Assembly (NCBI GenBank): GCA_028339155.1
Contig: JAOLBK010000012.1
Span: 1 to 62,630 of the forward strand
DNA: 62,630 bases
Direction: 5' to 3'
From: Litorivicinus sp.
GTDB lineage: Bacteria; Pseudomonadota; Gammaproteobacteria; Pseudomonadales; Litorivicinaceae
The notes under the pieces: generated by a model
Databases searched by the model: none
Seen by the model: only the letters and a program-made list of their open reading frames with translations
Told to the model about the DNA's origin: nothing
In this document: positions 18,236-27,429 of the stretch, piece by piece
Layout: each line of letters starts with the position of its first letter
Numbering within the stretch: the first letter of the stretch is position 1
Position numbers and translations under genes: made by a program

Positions 18236-19186
18236 ATGTTTAACCGTATTTCACGCTCAATAGGTCCGTTGATAGCGCTGAGAACAATCGAAAAAATGGG
18301 CAGTATTAACCGTGCGTCTGAAATTTTGAATATTTCTCAGTCGGCCCTAACTCGTGCAATTAGCGGTTTGGAAAAGCAATTGGATATTCAAATTTTGGAA
18401 CGGTCGGCGAGAGGCGTTCGGTTGACACGCCATGGGAAAACGTTGCGAGAACATGCTGAACGGATTGAATCGGAAATAAATAGTTTGATCACTTCAGTGG
18501 AGATGGTGCAGGAGGGGGCGGCCAAGGTCCTGAGACTTGGCGCCACACCAATGGTGTCTAGTTTTTTCGTTGCAAACGGGCTGGCTGCTCTTTATCGGAA
18601 TGGTTACTCTCTTGGACATGTCAATATCATGTTTTCTGAAGGATCTAAACCAGAGCTTCTGAGTAAACTCCGGAGAAATGAATTGGACTACGTTTTTTCA
18701 ACTTTGCCGTTCGAGAATGATGAAAAAGAGCTTGCTCAAATCTCGCTTTTTGACCTCAGTCTTTGTGTCGTTGTAAGCGCTTCTCATCGTTTGGCAGGCA
18801 GGGGTAAGGTGCGGTTGACCGATATTATCGGGGGTCATTGGGTCCTTCCGAGGGCAGATTCTGAGCTAGCGCGGCGTATTGGGGAGGATTTTTCCCGTTT
18901 GGGAGAGGGGTTCCCGATCAGTACTGTTGAGACGTCATCTTTGGATGCAACAAGAATATTGATCGAGAGAGCGGGATTAATTGGAATACTTCCTGAAAGA
19001 GCGATACAAAAAGACCTGATTGAAGGAAATCTAATTTCACTTCGTGGTGATTGGAGTTTTCAAAAGCGAACGGTCGGTATTTTCTGTAAAGCTGATAAAG
19101 AGAGTGATCAAATTTTAGAGTTAATTGTCGACGGTTTTCGAGATATAGAAGACCAAGCGTGTCGAGGACATCAAGTGTCTGGATGA
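18236..19186 (+). CDS. LysR-family transcriptional regulator
   Basis: 316 residues. MGSINRASEILNISQSALTR and AISGLEKQLDIQILERSARG form the winged helix, followed by LTRHGKTLREHAERIE and a periplasmic-binding-protein-like effector domain (LRLGATPMVSSFF). A GGAAGG ribosome site precedes the ATG. It is divergent from the dead ligA gene with 131 bases between, so it probably once controlled that operon. With its likely target broken it may now regulate other genes or be on the way to loss; its own frame looks intact. Confidence 0.85.
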   Translation: MFNRISRSIGPLIALRTIEKMGSINRASEILNISQSALTRAISGLEKQLDIQILERSARGVRLTRHGKTLREHAERIESEINSLITSVEMVQEGAAKVLRLGATPMVSSFFVANGLAALYRNGYSLGHVNIMFSEGSKPELLSKLRRNELDYVFSTLPFENDEKELAQISLFDLSLCVVVSASHRLAGRGKVRLTDIIGGHWVLPRADSELARRIGEDFSRLGEGFPISTVETSSLDATRILIERAGLIGILPERAIQKDLIEGNLISLRGDWSFQKRTVGIFCKADKESDQILELIVDGFRDIEDQACRGHQVSG

Positions 19187-21750: not shown

Positions 21751-23667
21751 TTAAGTTTCTGGAATGACTGAAAGTTCTGATTTAAATTTTTTGATTTTTG
21801 AGTAAAGAGTAGGCGCTTTGATGCCGAGCGCTAAAGCCGCTCCGAAAGGGCCGCTCACGCGACCGTTGCATTTTTCGAGCGTGTTTATGATTAGTTGTTT
21901 TTCGAGTGTGGCAATCTCGTCAAGGGTTGATGCGCCTTTTGAGTGTAGAAGGGCTGGCTGAGAACGATCTATACGATTTCCAACTTTTATAGAGTTTTCG
22001 AAAATGAGCAATGAGCCTTGAGCTAAGATCGATCCTCGCTCGATAATATTTTGGAGTTCACGGGCGTTACCCGGCCATTCATAGTTTTGGAGTTCTCTGA
22101 TTGTCGATGCATCTAATTTTGGCCGAGGAATGTTGGAGCGGCCGCATGCTAAGGCTATGAAATGATTTGCCAGTAGTGGAATGTCTTCTATTCTCTCGCG
22201 TAGCGGCGAGCAGTGAATTGGAAATACATCTAACCTAAAGAAGAGATCTTCGCGAAAGGTTCTTCGCTCGACTTCAAGCCTTAGATCACGATTGGTGGCC
22301 GCAATAATTCTGACATCTGTTTGTCGGGTAACGCCCTCGCCCACACGCTCATATTTCCGCTCTTGCAGGACTCGAAGTAACTTGCCTTGCAGATCTAAAG
22401 GTATTTCTCCAACCTCGTCGAGGAATAAAGTGCCTCCATTTGCAAGTTCAAAGCGTCCCACTCTGTTATTTACGGCGCCAGAAAAAGCTCCTTTCACGTG
22501 TCCAAAGAATTCACTTTCAAATAGATCTTTGGGGATAGCAGCGCAGTTAACACGTATTAATGGTTGGTTGCATCGGGAGCTTGCGTCGTGAATTGCTTGA
22601 GCCACAAGCTCCTTGCCGGTGCCACTCTCTCCAGTAACTAGTACATTTGCTGTCGTTGGCGCAACTATTTCTATTTGTTCAATGACTCGGTTTGTTGGTG
22701 GCGATGTCCCGATAATCGTAGCGTGGTTGCCTGCGACGCGGACCTCGTTTCGTAAGTATTCGTTTTCTTGTTCGAGTCGCTCTTTGAGCGTGTCTACTTT
22801 ACGAAGCGCTTGTTCAAGTGCATGCTGAGTCTCGAGACGACTCGATATGTCTCGAAAAATGATTACAGCACCCTGGGTTTTTCCGTCTGTATCAATCGGT
22901 GTTGATGTGTATTCGACGTGTACTGGTTTCCCTGATTTGTGCCAAAACACTTCATTGTCAACCCGGCGAACACTTCCCTCGGTGACTGTCTTATGGATAG
23001 GACAATCTTCTATTGCATAAGGCTCACTAGACAGGTGATGATGGTGAATCCACTGGTGCATATCCTTTCCGATGAGATCAGATGGATCCCATCCCAGGGT
23101 GGCCGCAGCGGCCGGATTCATGAATTCTGTTCTGCCGTGTTGATCGATTCCAAAAATACCATCGCCAGCAGCATTTAGAATGAGCTCATTGATTGATTCA
23201 GTTTGCTTATAGAGCAATTCAATTCGCCGCCACTCTAAAAGACCTGCCCGAAGCGATTCATCTGCCGAATTGATTTCTTGGGCCATGGTCAAAGTTGATT
23301 CAGGGATTATTAAAAGTAAGCATGCTTTTTGTCCATTTACTTGCAGTGTGCTTCCTTGGATTAAATATGTGCCCGAATCAGATATGCCTCCAGAAATTTT
23401 TAAGTCCATTGTTTGAGCACTGCCCATCGACTCTATTGCTTGCGTAAATACAATTAATTGAGGTCTCTGATCGATGAAGCAATCGGTTGGTTTGGATGGT
23501 ATGGCTTCTCTTTTCCAGAGTTCTTTAAATGCAGCGTTGGTGAAGAGAAAGTTGTCATTAATGGGGTCGATAAGACACGCAGGTATACCCAGAAGATCAA
23601 CAAATCGAGGTTCTTTGAAATTAGCCCAGGAAATACTATTTTTTAAAAAAAATTTCTTGATATTCAT
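21751..23667 (-). CDS. Sigma-54-dependent activator with PAS domains (likely cyanate-operon regulator)
   Basis: 638 residues. Two PAS-like regions (about 25-130 and 160-285; the second contains GIFGIDQHGRTEFMNPAAA) precede a coiled-coil linker, the AAA+ domain with Walker A GESGTGKE, sigma-54 loop GAFSGA (Ser for the usual Thr), Walker B GGTLFLDEVGEIP and sensor FREDLFFRLDVFPI, and a C-terminal Fis-type helix-turn-helix. There is no receiver domain, so the signal is probably sensed directly or by a partner. It is divergent from the cyanate transport operon, whose promoter region has a -24/-12 element, so it is the probable activator of that operon. Confidence 0.85.
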   Translation of the reverse strand: MNIKKFFLKNSISWANFKEPRFVDLLGIPACLIDPINDNFLFTNAAFKELWKREAIPSKPTDCFIDQRPQLIVFTQAIESMGSAQTMDLKISGGISDSGTYLIQGSTLQVNGQKACLLLIIPESTLTMAQEINSADESLRAGLLEWRRIELLYKQTESINELILNAAGDGIFGIDQHGRTEFMNPAAAATLGWDPSDLIGKDMHQWIHHHHLSSEPYAIEDCPIHKTVTEGSVRRVDNEVFWHKSGKPVHVEYTSTPIDTDGKTQGAVIIFRDISSRLETQHALEQALRKVDTLKERLEQENEYLRNEVRVAGNHATIIGTSPPTNRVIEQIEIVAPTTANVLVTGESGTGKELVAQAIHDASSRCNQPLIRVNCAAIPKDLFESEFFGHVKGAFSGAVNNRVGRFELANGGTLFLDEVGEIPLDLQGKLLRVLQERKYERVGEGVTRQTDVRIIAATNRDLRLEVERRTFREDLFFRLDVFPIHCSPLRERIEDIPLLANHFIALACGRSNIPRPKLDASTIRELQNYEWPGNARELQNIIERGSILAQGSLLIFENSIKVGNRIDRSQPALLHSKGASTLDEIATLEKQLIINTLEKCNGRVSGPFGAALALGIKAPTLYSKIKKFKSELSVIPET

Positions 23668-23691
23668 AAATTATTATTTTTAATAAAATTT

Positions 23692-23706
23692 GATTGAAAG
23701 TCAATC
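23692..23706. promoter_or_regulatory. Dyad upstream of the sigma-54 promoter (candidate activator site)
   Basis: GATTGA-AAG-TCAATC is a perfect six-base inverted repeat with a three-base spacer, extended outward by an outer TT/AA match. It lies 46 bases before the -24 element and 25 bases from the activator's start codon. A second TCAAT-like half site (CAATCAAAA) is at about 23719. Activator binding is inferred from position and symmetry. Confidence 0.45.
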
Positions 23707-23751
23707 GAAGAAAATAGCAATCAAAACAAAGGGCTAAATAAATCTTTAAAT

Positions 23752-23767
23752 TGGCACGAACCTCGCA
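23752..23767 (+). promoter_or_regulatory. Sigma-54 (-24/-12) promoter of the cyanate operon
   Basis: TGGCACGAACCTCGCA matches the TGGCAC-N5-TTGCA consensus at all but one base (TCGCA for TTGCA). The invariant GG and GC are 12 bases apart as required. It points into the substrate-binding-protein gene, whose ATG is 45 bases downstream behind GAGGAG. The divergent sigma-54 activator makes this call coherent. Confidence 0.75.
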
Positions 23768-23812
23768 ATACCGAAAATATATAAAGGTAAGTCAAGGCGA
23801 GGAGTAGCAGTA

Positions 23813-25189
23813 ATGACAGTTAAAAGTTTAGGAAATCCGTACAGCCCAGATACAGATCTGCGTCACGGTGCTGGATGCGGTTGCGTTCAATGCCAAACTC
23901 ACGGTGCCACAGAGCAGATCGAGAGTATGTCGACTGAAGAGATGGTTGGTCGCGTTGTTGAAAGCGCAATCGTTCGTTCAACATTTGGTCAGAATGACCT
24001 TTCGCGTCGTTCCTTCTTAGGTGCGGTGGGCGGTGGTACGGCGGCAGCAATTTTAGGCAGCGTGTTACCAATCGAAAAAGTTAAAGCTGCAATCTTAGAC
24101 AACCTCGGCCCCCCTGAGAAGAAAAATTTAAACATTGGCTTTGTTCCTATAACTTGCGCGACTCCGATCATCATGGCTCAACCGATGGGCTTTTATGAGC
24201 GTTATGGATTAAACGCAAAGGTTATCAAAACAGCGGGATGGGCAGTGGCACGAGATAAGTCGCTGAATGGTGAATACGATGCATCTCATATGCTGACACC
24301 GATGCCACTGGCAATGACTTTGGGGGCAGGTTCATCAGCTGAGCCATATATTATGCCAGCAGTTGAAAATATTAATGGTCAGGCAATCGTTTTAGCTAAC
24401 CAACACAAAGACAAGCGTGATCCAAAAATGTGGAAAGGATTCGTGTTTGGTGTCCCATTTGAATACTCAATGCATAATTTCTTGTTGCGGTATTACGTAG
24501 CTGAGTTCGGTTTGGACCCAGATAAAGATATCCAGATTCGGGTAGTGCCACCACCAGAGATGGTTGCCAATTTACGCGCTGGAAATCTCGATGGATATTT
24601 GTCTCCGGATCCATTTAATCAGCGTGCTGTTTGGGAAAAAATTGGGTTCCTTCATATTTTGACAAAAGACATTTGGGAGGGTCACCCATGTTGCGCTTTT
24701 GCATGTTCAGACAAATTTGCAAAAACGATGCCCAACACGTACGGCGCACTTCTAAAAGCGATTATTGATGCAACTCAGTATGCGTCCAAGGCCGAAAATA
24801 GGAAGGAAATTGCTGCGGCAATCAGTCCAAAGAATTACCTGAATCAACCAGTGCCAGTTGTTGAACAGGTTCTCACCGGTCGGTATGCAGATGGACTTGG
24901 GAATGTTCTCACGATACCGGACCGCATTGATTTTGATCCATTCCCTTGGCACTCCATGGGCGTTTGGATTTTGACGCAAATGAAGCGCTGGGGATACATT
25001 GAAAATAATATCGATTATCACAAGGTGGCAGAGCAGGTCTATTTGGCATCTGACTGTTCCAAAGTTATGACAGACCTTGGCTACCCGTCTCCTGACAAGA
25101 CGTACAAGCTGCATACGATCATGGGCAAAACGTTTAATCCGGCTGAGCCCGAAGCATACGTGGACTCATTTTCAATTAAGCGGGGATAA
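23813..25189 (+). CDS. NrtA/CmpA-type ABC substrate-binding protein (probable cyanate)
   Basis: 458 residues. Residues 1-60 are a Cys/His-containing extension (HGAGCGCVQCQTHG) that precedes a twin-arginine signal, SRRSFLGAVGGGTAAAILGS. The mature domain is NrtA/SsuA-like: LNIGFVPITCATPIIMAQ, GFYERYGLNAKVIKTAGWAV, and NLRAGNLDGYLSPDPFNQRA. Close homologues bind nitrate, bicarbonate or cyanate, and here cyanase ends the operon, so cyanate is the likely ligand. A Tat route implies folding, perhaps with a bound ligand or metal, before export. The long N-terminal extension before the Tat motif is unusual. Confidence 0.85.
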   Translation: MTVKSLGNPYSPDTDLRHGAGCGCVQCQTHGATEQIESMSTEEMVGRVVESAIVRSTFGQNDLSRRSFLGAVGGGTAAAILGSVLPIEKVKAAILDNLGPPEKKNLNIGFVPITCATPIIMAQPMGFYERYGLNAKVIKTAGWAVARDKSLNGEYDASHMLTPMPLAMTLGAGSSAEPYIMPAVENINGQAIVLANQHKDKRDPKMWKGFVFGVPFEYSMHNFLLRYYVAEFGLDPDKDIQIRVVPPPEMVANLRAGNLDGYLSPDPFNQRAVWEKIGFLHILTKDIWEGHPCCAFACSDKFAKTMPNTYGALLKAIIDATQYASKAENRKEIAAAISPKNYLNQPVPVVEQVLTGRYADGLGNVLTIPDRIDFDPFPWHSMGVWILTQMKRWGYIENNIDYHKVAEQVYLASDCSKVMTDLGYPSPDKTYKLHTIMGKTFNPAEPEAYVDSFSIKRG

Positions 25190-25192
25190 CGC

Positions 25193-26020
25193 ATGACTAC
25201 CTTAAAATCACGTGCGCTGATGTTATCAGTGGCAATTCTTGTTTTCTTGCTGGGTATTTGGGAACTTTCAATTCCTGCGCAAAAAGCAGCAGAAGAATTG
25301 ACGGAGTATGAGATTTTGATGGGTAGTGCAACTCCGAAGGCGGGTGTTCCCCCACCTTCGGAAATTATTATTAAAGTTTATGAAGAACTTTCAAATCCAT
25401 TTTATGAAGCAGGGCCTAACGATAAGGGTATTGGCATTCAAATTGGGTATTCGCTTTATCGTGTTTTGACCGGATTTGGGCTGGCTGCAATTCTAGCCAT
25501 ACCACTTGGTTTTGTGATCGGTATGTCACCACTGATGTACCGATCTCTAGACCCTTTTATCCAAATTCTTCGACCAATCTCACCGCTGGCATGGATGCCG
25601 TTGGCATTATTCGTTATTCAGGATAGTGAGGGGAGTGCAATTTTTGTGATCTTCATATGCTCTATTTGGCCGATGTTAATTAACACCGCCTTTGGCGTTT
25701 CAGGCGTTCGAAAAGATTGGGTCAACGTTGCCAAGACCCATGAGCTTGGTGTTTGGAAGACTGCTTATTTGGTCATTTTGCCGGCAGCCGCGCCAACAAT
25801 TGTGACGGGAATGCGAATTTCCATCGGGATAGCGTGGTTGGTAATCGTTGCGGCTGAAATGCTCGTCGGGGGCACTGGTATCGGTTATTACGTGTGGAAT
25901 GAGTGGAACAATTTAGATTTAACGTCCGTAATTTTCTCGATACTGATGATCGGAGTTGTAGGAATGACTCTTGATTCTGTATTTGGGATTCTACAATCCC
26001 GTGTTACCTATCAGGAGTAA
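25193..26020 (+). CDS. NrtB-type ABC permease (probable cyanate)
   Basis: 275 residues, three bases after the binding-protein stop, with six or seven membrane segments starting with MLSVAILVFLLGIWEL. The binding-protein-dependent permease (BPD_transp_1) region is clear: IGYSLYRVLTGFGLAAILAI, RPISPLAWMPLALFVI and the coupling-helix segment AKTHELGVWKTAYLVILPAA. It should form a homodimer in the inner membrane with the ATPase encoded next. Confidence 0.88.
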   Translation: MTTLKSRALMLSVAILVFLLGIWELSIPAQKAAEELTEYEILMGSATPKAGVPPPSEIIIKVYEELSNPFYEAGPNDKGIGIQIGYSLYRVLTGFGLAAILAIPLGFVIGMSPLMYRSLDPFIQILRPISPLAWMPLALFVIQDSEGSAIFVIFICSIWPMLINTAFGVSGVRKDWVNVAKTHELGVWKTAYLVILPAAAPTIVTGMRISIGIAWLVIVAAEMLVGGTGIGYYVWNEWNNLDLTSVIFSILMIGVVGMTLDSVFGILQSRVTYQE

Positions 26021-26023
26021 GTA

Positions 26024-26905
26024 ATGACCCAGTCATTTTTAAGTGTTGAGGGACTAACTCAACGATATCCAAGTTCAGAGTCTGGAGAATTAACAGTCTT
26101 CGAAAATTTAGATCTTAAGATCGAAAAAGGGGAATTCGTTTCGATCACTGGCCACTCTGGGTGTGGTAAATCAACAATATTGAATGTGCTCGCTGGTCTG
26201 GATGAAGCGAGCGAGGGTGTAGTAATTATGGAGGGCCGAGAGGTTTCTGGGCCCAGCTTGGATAGGGGGGTAGTGTTTCAAAACTACTCCTTACTTCCTT
26301 GGTTATCAGCTCTTCGAAATGTAACATTTGCGGTCGAGTCGAGGCATCCCGAATGGTCTGCCGATCAGGTCAAGGAGCATGCAAATTATTACCTCAACTT
26401 GGTCGGTTTGAATGATGGTGTCGAGTATCGAAAGCCATCTCAATTATCAGGAGGTATGCGGCAGCGAGTCTCCATCGCTCGCGCGTTTGCAACAGAGCCG
26501 AAGTTATTACTCTTGGATGAACCGTTCGGAGCTTTGGACGCATTAACTCGTGGGACAATTCAAGATGAATTACTCAAAATTTGGGCAGGTACAGGCCAGA
26601 CCATTTTCATGATTACCCATGATGTCGATGAGGCGATCTACCTGTCTGATCGAATCTTGCTAATGAGTAATGGTCCTTACGCCAGAATTGCCGAGAGTGT
26701 TGAAATTGAAATCGATCGTCCGCGTTCTCGGGGCAGTATTGTCGAAGATGCTCTTTACTACGATATTCGAAATCATCTTGTTCAATTTCTGACATCTAGA
26801 TCGAAGGAATTTAGTGGGCCGAGCTCTGAATCTGACGGGCACCTTCCAAAAATGGTGCGTTTATCAGAGAACTCGATAATTAAAAAGAAACTAATGGCGC
26901 TTTAA
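26024..26905 (+). CDS. NrtD-type ABC ATPase (probable cyanate)
   Basis: 293 residues, three bases after the permease stop. Walker A GHSGCGKST, Q-loop VVFQNYSLLPW, signature LSGGMRQRVSIARA, Walker B LLLLDEPFGALD and switch His MITHDVDEAIYL are all intact. Sequence style (SLLPWLSALRNVTFAVE) is that of the nitrate/sulfonate/cyanate import group. About 40 extra C-terminal residues follow the core. It powers the importer made by the two preceding genes. Confidence 0.9.
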   Translation: MTQSFLSVEGLTQRYPSSESGELTVFENLDLKIEKGEFVSITGHSGCGKSTILNVLAGLDEASEGVVIMEGREVSGPSLDRGVVFQNYSLLPWLSALRNVTFAVESRHPEWSADQVKEHANYYLNLVGLNDGVEYRKPSQLSGGMRQRVSIARAFATEPKLLLLDEPFGALDALTRGTIQDELLKIWAGTGQTIFMITHDVDEAIYLSDRILLMSNGPYARIAESVEIEIDRPRSRGSIVEDALYYDIRNHLVQFLTSRSKEFSGPSSESDGHLPKMVRLSENSIIKKKLMAL

Positions 26906-26920
26906 CAAGGAGATAGTTTT

Positions 26921-27391
26921 ATGAATGCAACGGGCCACCTGTTACCAACGATGTCAAAAGACGAGGCGACTGCTCTAATATTGACATCAAAAAAGTATTT
27001 CAAACTTTCATGGGAAGAGATAGGAGAGAAAATAGGTATGTCGCCAGTTTGGACCCACTCAGCCTGTTTTGGAATGAACTCGATGCCTCGTGAGAAAGCT
27101 GAGGCGCTAGTGAAGGCATTGGATTTACCGGATTCTTGTATCGACGCGCTGGAGGAAAAGCCAACTAAGGTTTGGGCGCAAGCCGTGCCGACTGATCCTG
27201 CAATTTATCGTTTGTACGAGATTGTTGGAGTATATGGGCCGACGATCAAAGATTTAGTTCAGGAGAAATTTGGTGACGGAATCATGTCAGCAATCGATTT
27301 TGAAATGTATATCGATAAGGTTGAAGATCCGAAGGGGGATCGAGTCAAAGTGACTATGTCAGGTAAATTCCTTGGTTATAAGAATTGGTAA
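26921..27391 (+). CDS. cynS: Cyanate hydratase (cyanase)
   Basis: 156 residues, exactly the family size. An N-terminal helix-turn-helix-like domain (ALILTSKKYFKLSWEEIGEK) precedes the catalytic domain. The active-site Arg and Glu lie in YRLYEIVGVYGPTIKDL and the Ser in GIMSAIDFEM, with the closing VTMSGKFLGYKNW. It decomposes cyanate with bicarbonate to ammonia and CO2 as a cytoplasmic decamer. AAGGAG precedes the ATG, 15 bases after the ABC ATPase, so uptake and degradation are one transcript. A hairpin follows the stop. Confidence 0.95.
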   Translation: MNATGHLLPTMSKDEATALILTSKKYFKLSWEEIGEKIGMSPVWTHSACFGMNSMPREKAEALVKALDLPDSCIDALEEKPTKVWAQAVPTDPAIYRLYEIVGVYGPTIKDLVQEKFGDGIMSAIDFEMYIDKVEDPKGDRVKVTMSGKFLGYKNW

Positions 27392-27404
27392 ATTCTTGGT
27401 CGAA

Positions 27405-27429
27405 ACCTCGCGCAGGTAAAGTGCGAGGT
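27405..27429 (+). terminator. Hairpin after cynS
   Basis: ACCTCGC(G)CA, a seven-base loop, and TGCGAGGT form an eight-pair stem with one bulged base 13 bases after the cynS stop. No T run follows, so intrinsic termination would be weak; it may instead stabilise the transcript end. Confidence 0.4.

Follow-up and report, generated by a model that had tools for sequence, protein, structure and literature searches.

A cynFABDS-type cyanate locus in a small-genome gammaproteobacterium, with a conserved sigma-54 promoter and an apparently rewritten operator

The window, meaning the whole 62,630-nucleotide stretch of DNA that was analysed, carries a gene for a PAS/sigma-54-activator/Fis protein (21751-23667, reverse strand) divergent from cynA, cynB, cynD and cynS (23813-27391, forward strand), so that gene identities and layout agree with the original prediction. 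The two units are separated by an AT-rich intergenic gap of 145 bases. The features are as follows.

21751-23667, reverse strand: cynF, PAS - AAA+ sigma-54 activator - Fis-type HTH protein, 638 aa (open reading frame and Pfam)
23692-23706, no strand assigned: perfect dyad GATTGA-N3-TCAATC, GATTGAAAGTCAATC; a candidate operator that relatives do not conserve
23752-23767, forward strand: sigma-54 -24/-12 element TGGCACGAACCTCGCA, one mismatch to TGGCACRNNNNTTGCW; predicted transcript start at about 23778, inferred from the -12 position
23800-23804, forward strand: AGGAG, likely ribosome-binding site by sequence, 8 bases 5' of the cynA start
23813-25189, forward strand: cynA, NMT1_2 / NrtA-CmpA-like periplasmic binding protein with a Tat-type signal, 458 aa (domain and family matches)
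25193-26020, forward strand: cynB, permease, above the NCBIfam cut-off of TIGR01183 (nitrate ABC permease family)
26024-26905, forward strand: cynD, ATPase, above the NCBIfam cut-off of TIGR01184
26921-27391, forward strand: cynS, cyanase, above the NCBIfam equivalog cut-off of TIGR00673

CynS scores 159.9 bits against the TIGR00673 cyanase equivalog, the cut-off being 113.3. The transporter is NrtA/CmpA-like by sequence, with CynA matching structures of NrtA and CmpA (E about 1e-46 to 1e-55) and TIGR01183 and TIGR01184 both being nitrate families, and its linkage to cynS favours cyanate over nitrate or bicarbonate as the cargo. Co-directional cynA-B-D-S facing away from a divergent sigma-54 activator is the cynFABDS layout. 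The E. coli-type arrangement with a LysR regulator was not found at this locus, as the divergent gene encodes a PAS-AAA+-Fis protein; a LysR gene lies at 18236-19186, with another gene between the two. The original prediction covered 23668-27429, and the activator gene falls just beyond that interval. The host genome, a 1.88 Mb draft that is 88% complete, contains one rpoN match with an intact reading frame and five strong activator genes, one of which is NtrC-like.

Such a system has been described in Pseudomonas pseudoalcaligenes CECT5344, where cynF and cynABDS diverge, a putative sigma-54 promoter precedes cynA, cynABDS forms a single transcript induced by cyanate and repressed by ammonium, and CynF is essential, its mutant being devoid of cyanase; similar arrangements are mentioned there for alpha-, beta- and gammaproteobacteria (PMC6627978). 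PMC12316311 also names cyanate lyase as a function associated with sigma-54 in alpha- and gammaproteobacteria. The window resembles the CECT5344 cluster in gene content and order, in the divergent Fis-type sigma-54 regulator and in the predicted sigma-54 promoter before cynA, and differs from it in the length of the gap (145 bases, against 268 bp there) and in its transporter proteins, which group with those of alphaproteobacteria. With E. coli cynTSX, which is under the LysR regulator CynR (PMC6627978), it has the cyanase in common, whereas the E. coli operon has another transporter, a carbonic anhydrase gene and no sigma-54 activator. The contrast with the CynR operon drawn beforehand was correct, but the novelty it implied fails, because CynF/sigma-54 control of cynABDS has already been published (PMC6627978) and cyanate lyase is on record as sigma-54-associated (PMC12316311). 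As the cyanate system itself is known, the locus chiefly adds a further example, from a gammaproteobacterium with a small genome.

The sigma-54 element at 23752-23767 does lie one base from the consensus, and none of 5,000 dinucleotide shuffles of the intergenic gap attained one mismatch with GG and GC retained. Matches with one mismatch are no rarity in the 62.6 kb window as a whole (2 against 1.17 expected), and it is therefore position and comparative evidence that carry weight. Of 80 loci from the genome collection, 72 have a divergent cynF next to cynA or cynS, as do 97 of the 108 usable loci after enlargement; from these 80 and from whole-genome searches came a set of 94 loci in which cynF diverges from one or the other gene. 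The best sigma-54 element of each was scored with GG and GC fixed, expectations being derived from dinucleotide shuffles. A promoter with at most one mismatch was present in 55/94 loci (0.35 expected), and the conservation on which the original prediction had staked the -24/-12 element was borne out in 88/94 loci within two mismatches (about 3.2 expected), nine of these 88 using the window's TCGC spelling at -12. The distance from the cynF start to the promoter is 84 bases in the window, against a median of 136 (range 56-354) in 79 loci. In the host genome TGGCACRNNNNTYGCW occurs three times (control, 1), at the cyn locus and ahead of two flagellar genes, one for a basal-body rod protein and one for flagellin; flagellar genes are classic sigma-54 targets. 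A sigma-54 promoter of cynABDS is well supported by these comparisons.

The cyn cluster was likely gained horizontally, judging from its distribution and its trees. The window's CynABD belongs to a fully supported set of 12 rows, comprising ten alphaproteobacterial ones, one from Granulosicoccus and the window itself, and a search with CynA at 1e-60 in 25 genomes of the family recovered only the window's own (1/25). Three congeners have a different cynS, 47-49% identical, and in L024 and L025 the congener-type cynS comes, by eye, after a rubredoxin/oxidoreductase-like gene. No relative of CynA was found in viral contigs.

CynF contains, by Pfam, a PAS domain (residues 161-274), a sigma-54 activation domain (318-485) and HTH_8 (586-628), and the absence of a receiver domain noted earlier was confirmed, none being present among its 11 Pfam matches. 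By eye, residues 20-130 look like a second, degenerate PAS region, where Pfam reports none. Walker A from residue 346, Walker B from 414 and a GAFTGA-type loop at 393-398, here spelled GAFSGA as in nine further rows of 105, mark it as a sigma-54 enhancer-binding protein. Its best matches in three sequence searches are largely CynF proteins adjoining cyn genes. Identity to any relative found is at most 51-55%; over the matched part it does not exceed 56% for CynF hits among 390 genomes of its order and 398 genomes from the phylum, and stays below 60% for plasmid matches. The window CynF has a very long branch (1.6; transporter proteins, 0.29) and no supported place in the CynF tree, which for these reasons was not used for dating the change; given the low identity and this branch, function is transferred to CynF less safely than to the enzymes.

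The window CynF departs from 9 of 175 near-invariant alignment columns, namely 3/13 in the HTH (P618A, T619P, R624K), 4/40 in PAS, 1/4 at the N-terminus and 1/109 in AAA+, an excess in the HTH over the remaining columns (Fisher p = 0.02). The recognition helix reads KAPTLYS, while PTT stands at 618-620 in 101/105 aligned rows; besides the window, only L034, L036 and L067 have anything other than PT at 618-619, and L036 and L067 score low for the canonical boxes described below. Since other rows depart at many columns (L076 at 14, L101 and L041 at 8 each; median 1) and K624 recurs in a few of them, the argument from the recognition helix leans mainly on 618-619.

The comparison of relatives yielded a putative three-box operator, which is more useful than the locus itself. 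When 63 non-redundant regions, the window's included, were screened upstream of the promoter for gapped palindromes in excess, ACGA-N4-TCGT emerged in 52 of them (0.55 expected). The boxes occur as threes, with steps of 21-23 and 17 bases, and an array scoring at least 19 of 24 positions was present in 84/94 loci against 0/940 shuffles, kinship among the loci inflating these counts. The distance from array to promoter, measured in 78 loci, is 56-59 bases in 29, 66-72 in 42, 79 in one and 82-83 in six, and is thus spaced by about one helical turn. Among 390 whole genomes of the window's order, ten carry an exact array (reversed control, 0), in each case 65-472 bases from the same genome's cynF match; P. 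mendocina strain EF27 (L043) also has the enhancer in exact form, unlike the window, which has none. Several of the ten low-scoring loci retain the geometry with other half-sites (TTATGA-like in L067 and L036, TTACGC in L119, mixed in L054 and L072), whereas L032 and L082 are unremarkable even in a test independent of spelling, equalled by 20 and 25 of 100 shuffles. L036 and L067 carry T619Q, and their TTATGA-type half-sites replace TTACGA with steps unchanged.

Three palindromes would suit three dimers of a hexameric activator. NorR reportedly has three palindromic enhancer sites before its sigma-54 promoter, where the three dimers of a single hexamer would find room; the likeness to the CynF relatives is one of layout and not of membership, the site sequence and the sensor domain (GAF) being different. 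The CynF search also retrieved a sister-like PAS activator, with one or two exact ACGA-N4-TCGT boxes in five of nine such loci and neighbours matching nitrogen-starvation / AIR-synthase-like families in 3/3 tested; judging from these neighbours, the loci are probably nit1C, a cyanide/nitrile cluster and not a cyanase one. NitA, the nit1C regulator, is named as sigma-54-dependent in PMC8567248. Five spellings of the ACGA-N4-TCGT box were looked for in the literature searched and none occurs there, nor did these searches bring up a recognisable paper on a CynF operator. The CynF of relatives now has a specific, testable candidate operator, with three boxes, fixed steps, helical-turn promoter distances and, in exact matches, one address per genome.

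The canonical ACGA-N4-TCGT array is missing from the window, where the best score is 12 of 24 and 441/500 shuffles do as well; as a consequence, the contact between CynF and DNA that ties activator to promoter in relatives is not visible here. The DNA sites to which the switch would bind in most relatives seem to be gone from the window. The locus is best read as a cynFABDS member that kept its promoter and apparently rewrote its operator: most relatives have a putative three-box CynF enhancer, and the window would have lost or rewritten this array while the CynF recognition helix changed.

The GATTGA dyad, the operator candidate of the original prediction, is a perfect repeat as described, although it ends 45 and not 46 bases before the promoter element. 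Its conservation did not hold, the dyad being exact in 0/72 homologous regions and within two mismatches in one, the same as in shuffles, and as a conserved enhancer it was rejected, its best matches over these regions being distributed like those of shuffles. Chance alone could account for it as an inverted repeat: perfect repeats with 6-base arms arise in 56% of the gap's dinucleotide shuffles with a spacer of 0-15 and in 30% with a spacer of 0-5. A second such repeat, TTATTA-N4-TAATAA, stands at 23671 in the gap. The dyad word has three matches with at most one mismatch in the window (0.46 expected) and occurs at 15 places in the host genome (reversed control, 1), being over-represented in both; the other two exact genome copies sit inside open reading frames, and a recurrent genomic regulatory site was discarded as an explanation. 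A repeated half-site, TTTGATTG, with three copies within 84 bases, was set aside because 13/100 shuffles equal it.

It is a serious possibility, though one we rate somewhat short of even, that regulator and operator were rewired together, the tip of the CynF helix changing (P618A, T619P) and the ATPase and sigma-54 promoter staying, with another site, perhaps the GATTGA dyad, taking the place of the three boxes. If this is true, the CynF family would offer a natural series in which the evolution of activator and enhancer specificity could be followed, and the window is in any event marked as an exception in which both appear changed together. No relatives close enough for footprinting the window's own operator were found among 25 family, 390 order and 398 phylum genomes, viral contigs and plasmids. 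A decayed operator, in which CynF would still read a T-rich three-box remnant with the usual steps of 21 and 17 at 23637-23690, overlapping the cynF start, is a rather doubtful alternative. When six similar half-sites at canonical steps were scored irrespective of spelling, the window reached 31.2, a value attained by 0/100 block shuffles and 0/26 AT-rich control tiles, and on symmetry alone it reached 15 of 18, attained by 0/300 shuffles. The half-sites, however, are T-runs (TATTTT, TTTTTT, TAATTT), the stretch is 79% AT whereas only ten control tiles reached 70%, the symmetry test discriminates poorly (15 was attained by 2/26 control tiles and only 16/94 canonical loci), and the distance of 63 to the promoter lies out of phase between the relatives' clusters at 56-59 and 66-72. 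It is the T-run half-sites, the poor symmetry test and the out-of-phase distance that keep our confidence in decay low.

Further control elements occur in the relatives. A sigma-54-like TGGCAC..TTG element facing cynF, with at most two mismatches, was found in 37/94 loci (1.85 expected from base shuffles), namely in 24 gammaproteobacteria, 12 members of the window's order and one alphaproteobacterium; in 30 of these 37 its start lies 3-6 bases away from the first box, and TTGT, TTGA or TTGG usually replaces TTGC in its -12 part. NtrC-type boxes were present within two mismatches in 27/94 loci (2.6 expected) and within one in 13 (0 expected), 26 of the 27 lying downstream of the cynA promoter element. 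In these relatives NtrC may prime cynF and CynF cap its own promoter, a loop that would explain the published ammonium control. The window has neither the cynF-facing element (best, 7 mismatches) nor an NtrC-type box (best, 5 mismatches).

Overall, the locus very probably belongs to the published cynFABDS module for cyanate assimilation, acquired here by horizontal transfer and under CynF-driven sigma-54 control. CynF, a PAS-sensing enhancer-binding ATPase made divergently from cynABDS, would assemble near the intergenic region when cyanate is present and nitrogen short, and would remodel the sigma-54 RNA polymerase held at TGGCACGAACCTCGCA (23752-23767); CynABD would then import cyanate, and CynS would convert it to ammonia and CO2. 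Gene content, divergent layout, domain make-up, the predicted promoter with its conservation and the presence of rpoN are read from the DNA itself, while CynF dependence, cyanate induction and ammonium repression in the window are presumed by analogy with the published Pseudomonas mutants, and the PAS region may be what senses cyanate or a product of cyanate.

An activator no longer specific for cyanate, recruited for, or drifted towards, another signal such as general nitrogen state or redox and still acting on the sigma-54 promoter, would fit the long CynF branch (1.6 against 0.29), the absent three-box operator and the replacement of P618 and T619, residues at either of which only three other rows of 105 vary; yet the conserved columns are mostly kept (PAS 36/40, AAA+ 108/109) and the best matches are largely CynF proteins beside cyn genes, and we consider it improbable. 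Even less probable is that another activator of the genome, for example the NtrC-like protein, serves the promoter and the operon answers ammonium shortage only: the host has such a gene and more than a quarter of the relatives carry NtrC-type boxes, but the window's own gap lacks one, and CynF is essential in Pseudomonas (PMC6627978).

As a minor observation on the relatives, the last 300 residues of CynF are identical in G301 (L123) and Marinobacter sp. CHS3-4 (L089), and the window's order includes Marinobacter-like genomes.

Upstream of cynA or cynS, the box ACGA-N4-TCGT is repeated three times, in steps of 21-23 and 17, in 84 of the 94 homologous loci in which cynF is divergent from either gene (drawn from L029-L108 and L112-L152), and the array is set at helical-turn spacing from the sigma-54 promoter. 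This three-box array is likely the operator of CynF, the sigma-54 activator encoded beside the cyanate operon. The first box is, moreover, abutted by a sigma-54-like element pointing at cynF in 30 of the 37 loci having such an element, an arrangement through which cynF could possibly cap its own expression. Further, 26 of the 94 loci carry an NtrC-type palindrome, TGCACC-N5-GGTGCA (up to two mismatches), 3' of the cynA promoter element. The same ACGA-N4-TCGT box is common to the CynF loci and to activators adjoining genes like those of the cyanide/nitrile cluster nit1C (5 of 9 such loci), hinting that the cyanide and cyanate regulators descend from one ancestor.

Features and their loci
Upstream regions of, for example, L051, L062, L112, L120: sigma-54-like element toward cynF
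For example L042, L051, L103, L106, L125: NtrC-type palindrome
L070, L092, L095, L108, L135: nit1C-like genes with activator and shared ACGA-N4-TCGT box
Window 23667-21751, minus strand (gene): CynF residues 204-222, the H204/H208/H209/C222 stretch, from the alignment

Among 44 aligned CynF-type proteins, H204, H208 and C222 of the PAS domain are invariant and H209 is nearly so; together, these residues may form a ligand or metal site.

The candidate operator dyad GATTGA-N3-TCAATC is commoner than expected in both the window (three occurrences vs 0.46 expected) and its own genome (15 places vs one for the reversed control, allowing up to one mismatch).

Other contexts of cynS were also observed. 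In the congeners L024, L025 and L026, another cynS (47-49% identical) adjoins a rubredoxin/oxidoreductase-like gene. In the Marinobacter bin L062 (4320-5129) cynS is followed by a formate/nitrite-type channel gene in place of cynABD.
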